From assembly GCA_030649205.1 (NCBI GenBank), contig JAUSGE010000038.1, positions 1 to 42,763 of the forward strand: a stretch of 42,763 nt of DNA. The letters are read 5' to 3'. The notes beneath the pieces are model-generated. The model ran no database searches. It was not told the origin of the DNA and saw nothing but the letters and a program-made list of their open reading frames with translations. The DNA comes from a bacterium (lineage in GTDB: Bacteria > Patescibacteriota > Patescibacteriia > Patescibacteriales > GWC2-42-12). The translations under genes and the position numbers were made by a program. Position 1 is the stretch's first letter, and each line of letters starts with the position of its first letter. This document shows, piece after piece, positions 9,440-18,204 of the stretch.

Positions 9440-9940
9440 TTACCTTTGATAAAGAACCGCGATCTCATTGCACAGGTGAACACCTTCTTTCATCCGGTTT
9501 TTGGAGCACCCGAGGCAATCAGTCAGCACTTTTGGGCCAAACAGCTGGATGCCAACTTCAATGAACCCCAGAGGGAAGAATAGTTTAATGGCTACATTCT
9601 CTGTAGTCAACGCAAAAATATTTAGACTATCCCACTTTCTAAGTTCTTCAACCTTCCGCTGGAGAAGTATAGTTCCAAGTCCTCGGCCTCTAAATTCTTT
9701 TTTGGTCATCAGCGAAATTATTTCCATATTTAAACCATAGAGTTTTGACCCGACGCATCCAATCACCTCCTTCCTTTCATTTATTGCCACTAAAAAATTG
9801 GATATCTGACTATCGACCTCTTCCGGAGAACGATAACATAAATTTTCTCCGCGCGTGAGCTCGCTAATGTCAAAATCTTGTTCTTTGCTGGCTTCCGTGA
9901 TAATAATGTTTTCTGCCTGGCCATTCCTGGTGATTTCCAT
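9440..9940 (-). CDS. GNAT acetyltransferase 1, ArgA-like with C-terminal cysteines
   Basis: 166 residues. Motif A of GNAT enzymes is clear: IISLMTKKEFRGRGLGTILL binds acetyl-CoA through RGRGLG. The C-terminus has DCLGCSKNRMKE followed by HLCNEIAV, the same Cys pattern as the paralogue at 17430 (DCSNC...CNEQAV). This tail is typical, as far as I recall, of short N-acetylglutamate synthase-like proteins. Control by an Arg-type T-box and an Arg-rich leader peptide supports a role in arginine metabolism. Most Patescibacteria lack a full arginine pathway, so the acetyl acceptor is open. AAAGGAG precedes ATG 9940 at good spacing. Confidence 0.82.
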   Translation of the reverse strand: MEITRNGQAENIIITEASKEQDFDISELTRGENLCYRSPEEVDSQISNFLVAINERKEVIGCVGSKLYGLNMEIISLMTKKEFRGRGLGTILLQRKVEELRKWDSLNIFALTTENVAIKLFFPLGFIEVGIQLFGPKVLTDCLGCSKNRMKEGVHLCNEIAVLYQR

Positions 9941-9979: not shown

Positions 9980-10052
9980 AAAAAACGGCCATTTTGAGGC
10001 CGTTTGATAGTTTGTAAAGTTATAGATATTTTAAACACTAACAAACAGCCTC
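9980..10052 (-). promoter_or_regulatory. Transcription attenuator (antiterminator/terminator) before GNAT 1
   Basis: Terminator: AAACGGCC (10005-9998 on minus) pairs with GGCCGTTT (9990-9983), followed by a T-run to 9980. Antiterminator: GAGGCTGTTTG (10052-10042) pairs over 11 positions with CAAACGGCCTC (10006-9996), consuming the terminator's 5' arm. The antiterminator's 5' arm lies inside the last codons of the leader ORF, 20 nt after the Arg triplet. AACAG..CC around that triplet can pair with GGCTGTT, giving the 1:2 pause hairpin. All parts of a ribosome-mediated attenuator are present. Confidence 0.8.
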
Positions 10053-10114
10053 AAAAAAATAGTGTGAGTTGAACGGCGTCTGTTGATGATTGTGTATATT
10101 TGATTTTTTGCCAT
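10031..10114 (-). CDS. 27-residue Arg-rich leader peptide
   Basis: ATG at 10114, stop TAA at 10031. The peptide begins MAKNQIYTIINRRRSTHT; codons 12-14 are AGA CGC CGT (10081-10073), and another Arg (AGG) is codon 22. A ribosome waiting for Arg-tRNA at codons 12-14 leaves the antiterminator arm at 10052-10042 free; a ribosome that finishes covers it and allows the terminator to form. No classical ribosome site is present, only GAGG in the preceding T-box terminator arm. The function is inferred from architecture, not from any homologue. Confidence 0.72.
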   Translation of the reverse strand: MAKNQIYTIINRRRSTHTIFLRLFVSV

Positions 10115-10122
10115 ATGATATT

Positions 10123-10399
10123 AAAAAAACCTCGTCTTTAAATAGAAAAAAATTCTATTCAAGGACGAGGTTTAAAATCTCGCGGTACCACCCTGATTCC
10201 CCGATTTAACATCGGAGCGCTCATTAAGCTGTTTGCCTGCGGTAGCTAACCGCTCCGGCCTACTTAAGGTTCAGCCGGCAATCTCCGGAAGCGCGTTCGG
10301 AAACGCTTGGCTTGCCGGGCTCGCAACTGCCCCGGCTCGCTTAAAAGCCAGTCCGCTTCTTACTATTTTCCGTTAACGATTGGATTTATTTTTAAGGTT
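10123..10399 (-). promoter_or_regulatory. T-box riboswitch, specifier CGC (Arg), controls GNAT 1
   Basis: On minus the leader has a stem I with AGUA (10364-10361) opposite GAA-CGC (10298-10293), the loop-E signature followed by the specifier; CGC reads Arg. The distal AG-bulge/loop segment AGCGAGCCGGGG is present, then the T-box core GGGTGGTACCGCG (10193-10181). An 18-bp terminator stem (10170-10130) follows with T7 (10129-10123). Uncharged tRNA-Arg should stabilise the antiterminator. It is nearly identical to the T-box at 17928-18204. Confidence 0.9.
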
Positions 10400-10405
10400 A
10401 ACTAT

Positions 10406-10434
10406 ATAATAAGCTATAAATAACTTGTTGTCAA
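10406..10434 (-). promoter_or_regulatory. Promoter of Arg T-box 1
   Basis: TTGACA (10434-10429), 17-bp spacer, TATTAT (10411-10406) on minus; near-consensus sigma-70 type. Confidence 0.75.
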
Positions 10435-10598: not shown

Positions 10599-11237
10599 AT
10601 GTTCACACCCAAGAAAATGTTCTTTACCAAAGGGGTAGGCGTTCACAAAGACAAATTAGCCGCGTTTGAGCTGGCTTTACGGAACGCGGGTATTGAAAAG
10701 CACAATCTGGTAACCGTTTCCAGCATTTTACCGCCAAATTGCCAGATTGTTTCCAAAGAAAAAGGCGAAAAAATGCTTTATCCCGGCCAGATAGTTTTCT
10801 GTGTTTTGGCCAGAAGCGAGACTAATGAACCCAATCGGTTAATTTCCGCCGCCATCGGCGTGGCCAGGCCAAGCGATGGCAACAATTACGGCTATTTGTC
10901 AGAACATCATGCTTTCGGCGAAGTAGCCAAAAAAACCGGCGAATATGCCGAAGACTTGGCCGCTACCATGTTAGCCACGACTTTAGGCATTGAATTTGAT
11001 GCTAACAGCGCTTGGGAAGAAAGAGAACAAATCTATAAAACCAGCGGCCACATTTTTAAGACCACTCATATTTGCCAATCGGCCGAAGGCAATAAAGACG
11101 GCTTGTGGACTACCGTGCTTTCCGTAGCGGTTTTCTGCGATTTTAATATGCATAAAGACGTGATTGCCCCGATTATTAAAGATGAGATTGAACATAGCGT
11201 GATAAATAATAACGCGAACCATATTGATAAAAATTAA
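10599..11237 (+). CDS. pdaD: Pyruvoyl-dependent arginine decarboxylase
   Basis: 212 residues. [11 protein letters not shown] contains the autocleavage pair Ser41-Ser42 that creates the pyruvoyl group, as in the Methanocaldococcus enzyme (VSSILPP). [11 protein letters not shown] carries the conserved acidic residue of the active site, and [11 protein letters not shown] is another family block. The enzyme converts arginine to agmatine, the first step to putrescine. It faces an Arg-regulated GNAT gene divergently, suggesting a small arginine-handling island. Length is slightly above the archaeal enzyme because of a C-terminal helix ([16 protein letters not shown]). Confidence 0.92.
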
Positions 11238-17429: not shown

Positions 17430-17918
17430 TCAGTCAAGCAGGAGCTCAACCGCCTGCTCGTTGCATTTTTTATCGCCTGGACCGGCGGCGTTGCGCGGAC
17501 AATTGCTGCAATCCATCCAGACTTTAAATGACAGCCTGTTGTAGTGGACGACTTTAAAATTGATGCGGGTAAAAACTTTTGGCGCCACGGTCATGGCGAA
17601 AAATCTTTTAATGCCCAGATTTTTGCACCTTTCAATATTTTCCTGTATTAATTTGGTGCCGACGCCTTGGCCTTGAAAGCGCTTCAAAGTAGCCAAGCTG
17701 ATAATTTCCGCGCTTTCATCCATCCAAATCTTAAAGCCGCAGGTCGCGACAACCTTTTCACCCCTAACCGCCACTGAAAAATTTGTCAGCAGATCAAGTA
17801 TCTGCCCCTTGCTTTTCGGCAGCATAACGCCCTTGCTCGCATTCCGATTAACCAAATTCAGCATTTGGCCCACGTCTTTCACCGTTGCCTGGCGAAATGT
17901 TAGATCCTCTTTTTTCAT
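17430..17918 (-). CDS. GNAT acetyltransferase 2, ArgA-like with C-terminal cysteines
   Basis: 162 residues, paralogue of the GNAT at 9440. IISLATLKRFQGQGVGTKLI is the acetyl-CoA motif. The tail DCSNCPRN...KKCNEQAVELL repeats the Cys pattern of the first copy and resembles short N-acetylglutamate synthases. FTRINFKVVHYNRLSFKVW precedes it. ATG 17918 lies only 9 nt past the T-run of its own Arg T-box terminator, with no ribosome site between; GAGG in the terminator arm is the only candidate. The two copies differ widely in sequence while their T-boxes are almost identical, so the T-boxes are either under strong constraint or were exchanged recently. Confidence 0.82.
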   Translation of the reverse strand: MKKEDLTFRQATVKDVGQMLNLVNRNASKGVMLPKSKGQILDLLTNFSVAVRGEKVVATCGFKIWMDESAEIISLATLKRFQGQGVGTKLIQENIERCKNLGIKRFFAMTVAPKVFTRINFKVVHYNRLSFKVWMDCSNCPRNAAGPGDKKCNEQAVELLLD

Positions 17919-17927
17919 ATATGATAT

Positions 17928-18204
17928 AAAAAACCTCGTCTTTGAATAGAAAAAATTCTATTCAAGGACGAGGTTTAAAATCTCGCGGTACCACCCTGAT
18001 TCCCCGATTGATATCGGGGCGCTCATTAAGCCGTTGGTCCGCGGCGGCTAACCGCTCCGGCCTACTTAAGGTTCAGCCGGCAATCTCCGGAAGCGCGTTC
18101 AGAAACGCTTGGCTTACCGGGCTTGCAACTGCCCCGGCTCGCTAAAAGCCAGTCCGCTTCTTACTATTTTCCTTCAACGATTAGGTAATTTTTAAAATTA
18201 ATTA
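17928..18204 (-). promoter_or_regulatory. T-box riboswitch, specifier CGC (Arg), controls GNAT 2
   Basis: Almost base-for-base the same as the T-box at 10123-10399: GAA-CGC specifier segment at 18100-18095, distal loop region, T-box core GGGTGGTACCGCG (17996-17984), and an 18-bp terminator stem (17973-17934) with T6. Differences are a few loop and stem bases (for example TCTG instead of TCCG before the specifier), which spare the motif. Confidence 0.9.

Follow-up and report, generated by a model that had tools for sequence, protein, structure and literature searches.

The at operon of Bacillus subtilis (rtpA, anti-TRAP) reportedly carries a T-box for tRNA-Trp, which is followed by a Trp leader peptide (Chen and Yanofsky, Science 2003, cited in PMC11255114). 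Both stages switch on at starvation, and the leader peptide controls the translation of rtpA. The locus analyzed here has the same basic design, in that a T-box and a leader ORF for one and the same amino acid are placed in series on a single transcript, but it senses arginine rather than tryptophan, it belongs to the Patescibacteria, and its second stage is an intrinsic transcription terminator, whereas that of rtpA is a translational control. The Shine-Dalgarno site of the regulated gene, GNAT1, lies downstream of this second terminator. The principle of combining a T-box with a leader peptide is already known from the at operon, and the statement in a preliminary description of this DNA that no tandem for one amino acid had been described was too strong. 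The same description took T-boxes and leader attenuators to be normally found in separate lineages, but here they are not confined in this way: a single taxonomic order has both, as does even a single window (the whole stretch of 42,763 nucleotides that was analyzed). New are the amino acid arginine, the two transcription terminators in series, the occurrence in Patescibacteria, and the presence of serial leader attenuators in four relatives. The locus represents a second, independently built case in which a T-box is stacked with a leader peptide of the same amino acid specificity, now with two transcription terminators.

With the classical ribosome-dependent amino-acid attenuators of the trp, his, and leu type, the locus shares several regulatory codons in a row, mutually alternative 2:3 and 3:4 hairpins (together with a 1:2 hairpin that is only predicted), and a stop codon placed such that the ribosome can cover region 2. 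The family to which its leader belongs differs from them in being devoted to arginine, in its occurrence in Patescibacteria, and in lacking any matching Rfam family; moreover, most homologues of the leader appear to start translation at or beside the first transcribed base. Tandem T-boxes, which are common in Bacillota (trp, ilv/leu, thrS; PMC12452182), likewise perform two serial checks of tRNA charging for one amino acid, each with a terminator, but there both stages are T-boxes, whereas the second stage in the window needs a ribosome. In Salmonella, the speF leader orf34 resembles the ORF described here in that its Arg codons, two in number, are consecutive, and arginine is sensed by ribosome pausing; orf34 acts via Rho, RNA structure (unmasking of the ribosome-binding site), and RNase G (PMC6386406), instead of the intrinsic terminator/antiterminator switch of the window. 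No paper joining the term T-box riboswitch with Patescibacteria was found in the literature searched, in which subscription journals were mostly not included, and no Arg leader attenuator of this type was found among the papers listed. This family of Arg leader attenuators is revealed in a phylum with hardly any described RNA regulation.

The source genome (1.22 Mb, 98% complete) is a draft in 50 contigs. Read from position 10434 on the minus strand, the locus is composed of a promoter, a T-box, a terminator, a 27-codon leader ORF, a second terminator, a Shine-Dalgarno site, and GNAT1 (Table 1). The consensus promoter, the Arg T-box with its GAA-CGC specifier, and the terminator with its T7 run had been correctly located in the preliminary description, and the leader ORF with its three Arg codons matches it base for base. 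The second terminator was likewise found as claimed, with a hairpin at 10005-9983 and a T run to 9980, and the proposed antiterminator arms (10052-10042 with 10006-9996) are present within a longer pairing (10054-10039 with 10009-9994). A paralogous T-box (T-box 2), which had been overlooked, lies directly 5' of GNAT2, a paralogue of GNAT1, about 8 kb from T-box 1. The two elements are approximately 90% identical over approximately 300 nt, and the similarity continues past the terminator to the ATG. An aligned TTGACA promoter is also present 5' of T-box 2 and of a T-box in genome G006, which stands 5' of the GNAT2 orthologue. The sole candidate for an internal promoter of the leader (10142-10115, 9/12 matches) was rejected, as its -10 box touches the ATG and is too close for the leader to be transcribed.

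Table 1 Features of the arginine-responsive locus and of its paralogue in the window
Feature	Position	Strand	Basis or remark
Sigma-70-type promoter TTGACA-17-TATTAT	10406..10434	-	11/12 consensus match
T-box 1, Arg-specific T-box leader RNA	10158..10385	-	RF00230, 106.5 bits
Specifier codon CGC (Arg) after GAA	10293..10295	-	RF00230 alignment; conserved in T-box 2 and G006
UGGU bulge of the T-box (pairing with ACCA of the tRNA)	10187..10190	-	Sequence; tRNA-Arg(GCG) A73
Intrinsic terminator 1, that of T-box 1, with T7 run at 10129-10123	10123..10173	-	Sequence; conserved in T-box 2 and G006
Leader peptide ORF MAKNQIYTIINRRRSTHTIFLRLFVSV, 27 codons and stop	10031..10114	-	Sequence; homologous leaders in relatives
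Regulatory codons AGA CGC CGT (Arg-Arg-Arg, codons 12-14)	10073..10081	-	Arg run at matching place in homologues
Region 1, 5' arm of putative 1:2 pause/protector hairpin, overlaps Arg codons	10069..10088	-	Truncated-leader fold, -12.3 kcal/mol
Region 2, antiterminator 5' arm, ends just 5' of leader stop codon	10039..10054	-	Covarying 16-bp helix
Region 3, antiterminator 3' arm, overlaps 5' arm of terminator 2	9994..10009	-	Folds and covariation
Second intrinsic terminator (3:4)	9980..10005	-	8-bp stem, 5 GC pairs, T tail
GNAT1, regulated gene, GNAT acetyltransferase	9440..9940	-	Pfam PF00583; Shine-Dalgarno GGAG at 9949-9946
T-box 2, paralogous Arg T-box	17961..18186	-	RF00230, 109.3 bits
GNAT2, starts right after T-box 2 terminator	17430..17918	-	69% identical to T-box-controlled GNAT of G006

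We consider it quite probable that the locus functions as a two-stage transcription attenuator in which both stages respond to the same signal, and that it arose by acquisition of a T-box from the GNAT2 locus. In the first stage, uncharged tRNA-Arg(GCG) would be bound via the CGC specifier and the UGGU bulge and would prevent formation of the first terminator. In the second stage, a ribosome would translate the leader; when arginyl-tRNA is scarce, it would stall on AGA-CGC-CGT and leave region 2 free, the 2:3 antiterminator would form, and GNAT1 would be transcribed. When arginyl-tRNA is abundant, the ribosome would reach the stop codon and cover region 2, with the consequence that the second terminator forms. 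As both stages would be on at arginine starvation, the output is expected to be the product of the two, i.e. a response that is stricter, resembles an AND gate, and leaks little, although this logic is inferred. The mechanism is well supported by the comparison of sequences but has not been shown by experiment. If correct, the locus offers natural parts with which the value of serial sensing (a steeper response, a lower leak) could be tested.

The antiterminator and the second terminator are mutually exclusive, and the antiterminator is backed by covariation. The duplex between the leader and the terminator arm has a predicted energy of -25.0 kcal/mol compared to -6.9 ± 1.8 kcal/mol in 5000 dinucleotide shuffles, none of which was as strong. 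In an alignment of ten leaders, pairing in the 16-bp antiterminator amounts to 91%, and two-sided changes occur in 7 of the 16 pairs, which was equalled by none of 500 shuffles. A chance pairing was excluded by these dinucleotide shuffles together with the covariation. In constrained folds, in which a stalled ribosome was represented only by an unpaired footprint, a ribosome on the Arg codons led to the antiterminator when the RNA extended up to region 3, and a ribosome at the stop codon led to the terminator. When the whole RNA was allowed to fold, the terminator re-formed in both leaders of G110 and in that of G552. If no ribosome is included, the window leader at full length has an antiterminator-like minimum-energy fold, so that the off state is not assured in the absence of translation. 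Folding alone, without a covariation test, predicts a 1:2 hairpin for the window and also for several relatives, whose arm sequences differ. Control by a conserved peptide instead of the RNA was also considered and rejected. In one leader of G394 (contig C33), the RNA TTGTTTGTTAGTGTTTAA is retained but is read in another frame, from which it follows that the conserved 3' end of the leader reflects the RNA arm.

Stand-alone forms of the second stage were detected in relatives. When the 541-nt element was used as a DNA query against the taxonomic order, its leader portion, not its T-box portion, was matched in G023 and G044, where the same leader (up to the stop codon, MKLCKQPNLINRRRNSDFVLRLFVSV and MKNIQTITIRRRRNSRFYLRLFVSV, respectively) stands 5' of a GNAT gene of the same family and is served by a promoter of its own immediately at the ATG. 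A pattern of the conserved RNA arm alone revealed further leaders with Arg runs in G393 (GRSRRLR) and G394 (QRRRP); in the latter, the frame of the leader is shifted with respect to the arm. The covariance models R1 and R2 yielded Arg leaders in G047 (RCR), G039, G110, G514, G552, G183, G219, G394 (contig C69), and G395, and, for G108 and G110, also leaders of proB that contain Pro and Arg codons. As both models include the Arg codon columns, their hits are not independent of the Arg run; the pattern search and the DNA search with promoterless arms are less affected. The leader on contig C69 of G394 stands alone 5' of a similar GNAT gene. Leaders with RRR or similar runs span several families and orders and are also found outside the class, and no Rfam T-box was detected near the leaders in those loci of relatives that were scanned. 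An exact 18-nt pattern occurred at 91 places in GTDB genomes, almost all of them by chance, the true ones being G023, G044, and the Komeilibacteria loci; in viral contigs, the same pattern gave no convincing attenuator. Leader, Arg run, and antiterminator are thus kept in relatives, with covariation, and the lack of conservation that, according to the preliminary description, would have refuted the idea of a tRNA-Arg sensor and an Arg-codon leader attenuator in series on one RNA was not encountered. As stand-alone and stacked forms coexist, the evolutionary step between them can be compared directly.

Some of the related loci differ in what follows the leader. On contig C33 of G394 (L050, 1340-1495), a full RRR leader with terminator has no gene on the same strand behind it, and the next gene is convergent; it is either an orphan attenuator or the result of gene loss. 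In G393 and G183 (L049, L227), the RRR leader is followed by a gene for a conserved protein of about 180 amino acids, for which no Pfam match was found in G393, and then by an Asp/Glu racemase; judged by this arrangement, the two may form an arginine-regulated pair whose role is unassigned. Similar antiterminator/terminator leaders without Arg runs are located before GNAT-like genes in G358 and G407 (L229, L231).

The weakest link of the model is the translation start of the leader, and both the translation of the leader and its response to arginine are only inferred. In most first-stage leaders, the -10 box is located 6 to 10 nt 5' of the ATG and a Shine-Dalgarno site is absent, which points to a start of translation at or beside the first transcribed base, as far as can be inferred from sequence. 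Second-stage leaders, including that of the window, cannot use such a promoter-adjacent start, and the window leader has lost what most of its homologues possess; apart from a GAGG 15 nt upstream, its ATG also lacks a Shine-Dalgarno site. It is therefore conceivable, albeit unlikely, that only the T-box works and that the leader has remained untranslated ever since the T-box replaced its promoter, the second stage being a relic with mere read-through or with termination at a constant rate. Read-through would be in line with the ribosome-free fold described above, which favors the 2:3 pairing. However, the reading frame of the leader, its Arg run, the antiterminator arms, and the position of the stop codon are all intact in spite of a drift of about 10% between the T-box copies. 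Furthermore, initiation at the leader ATG is plausible because its context is the same as that of the GNAT2 start codon. GNAT2 itself has no Shine-Dalgarno site other than a GAGG, which is located 15 nt upstream of its start and belongs to the terminator arm; this arm is freed when the antiterminator of T-box 2 forms, and the T-box might in this way affect the translation of GNAT2, too.

The opposite possibility, that only the leader attenuator regulates and that T-box 1 is a degenerate copy which merely provides a promoter with constitutive read-through or termination, is improbable. A single feature speaks in its favor, namely a UAA in the lower stem I motif instead of the UGA found in T-box 2, in the T-box of G006, and in the family consensus. 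Against this, T-box 1 scores 106.5 bits, above the curated (gathering) cut-off of 93 bits for RF00230, and has retained a strong terminator in addition to its specifier and T-box bulge. This terminator is formed by a CCTCGTC/GACGAGG hairpin followed by T7, and in the RF00230 alignment its CTCGTCC segment doubles as the 3' arm of the T-box antiterminator; the two structures compete for this common segment, as is required of a member of the T-box class. Among the Rfam tRNA hits of the genome, ARAGORN identified five tRNA-Arg genes with the anticodons GCG, CCG, TCG, TCT, and CCT and none for an ACG isoacceptor. Because of its anticodon, its A73, and the lack of an ACG isoacceptor, tRNA-Arg(GCG) fits the specifier and the T-box bulge as well as codons 13 and 14 of the leader; the AGA at codon 12 is decoded by the tRNA-Arg with the anticodon TCT. 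Sequence and comparison show the existence and the specificity of both devices.

Among the relatives compared, the leader attenuator mostly occurs with its own promoter and without a T-box, and the tandem of T-box and leader was seen in one genome only. The simplest account of these data would be that GNAT1 was once preceded by an older stand-alone Arg leader attenuator, whose promoter gave way to a copy of the GNAT2 T-box together with the ATG context downstream of it. Which way the duplication went is an inference, in which T-box 2 likely represents the source lineage of T-box 1; a tree of the GNAT proteins is too weak to tell the older paralogue and does not contradict the copying of the T-box. 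That the tandem is a mere misassembly of the T-box 2 repeat onto the leader locus, as might be feared with two elements of about 90% identity only some 8 kb apart on a draft contig, can hardly be maintained, as the differences are spread over the whole element and both flanks are unlike, so that the collapse of a repeat does not account for either copy. The GNAT1 protein has weak N-acetylglutamate-synthase-like matches; its matches to NCBIfam models of amino-acid N-acetyltransferases lie below their cut-offs (best match PRK07757), and a search for related loci with this protein found none. An argininosuccinate synthase, present in 14 of 14 control genomes, was not found in the genome; complete arginine synthesis is therefore unlikely, and a tie of GNAT1 to arginine synthesis is unproven. 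A gene for a pyruvoyl-dependent arginine decarboxylase (10599-11237, plus strand) is divergent from the attenuator and GNAT1, i.e. GNAT1, expected to be induced by arginine starvation, is located beside it.

Serial arrangements of leaders were also seen in other genomes. On contig C23 of G110, the leader MNKLISQIVRRDSFKHV with its own terminator is followed by an RRR leader (RR then RRR), and in G393 MNILNVNINIIRRTSE is followed by MKKINYIQSILGRSRRLRIILRSFVSV (RR then RSRR); the first-stage duplex of G393 was equalled by 1 of 3000 mononucleotide shuffles. G395 contains MKYIQNTFRRWHTESVSAIL and then MITYSAYNNCSRRWSRILSAH, both with Arg-Arg-Trp, and the amino acid sensed could therefore be Arg or Trp. 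In G108, two Pro/Arg leaders stand in series 5' of proB. Of all serial cases seen (G110, G393, G395, G108, and the window), only the window has a T-box as first stage. We lean slightly towards the view that the stacking of attenuators for one and the same amino acid in series on a single transcript ("cascaded attenuation") recurs in Patescibacteria, that the stacks are built from leader modules, the first of which would start translation at the first transcribed base or close to it, and that in the window lineage a T-box was swapped in as first stage. The proB gene codes for glutamate 5-kinase, and leaders rich in Pro and Arg codons precede it at L035 (1450-1750, contig C15 of G108) and L175 (G110).

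Two weaker T-box matches were noted. One, in the window itself (15907-15665, minus strand; 38.5 bits, below the cut-off), is located 5' of two very short ORFs, of which one is zinc-ribbon-like and the other reads MSLTEFCEKNGHCMFCVKEDVV..., and of a gene for a TrpB-like PALP enzyme. The other (L003, G000:C30:19888-20125) precedes a threonyl-tRNA synthetase-like gene.
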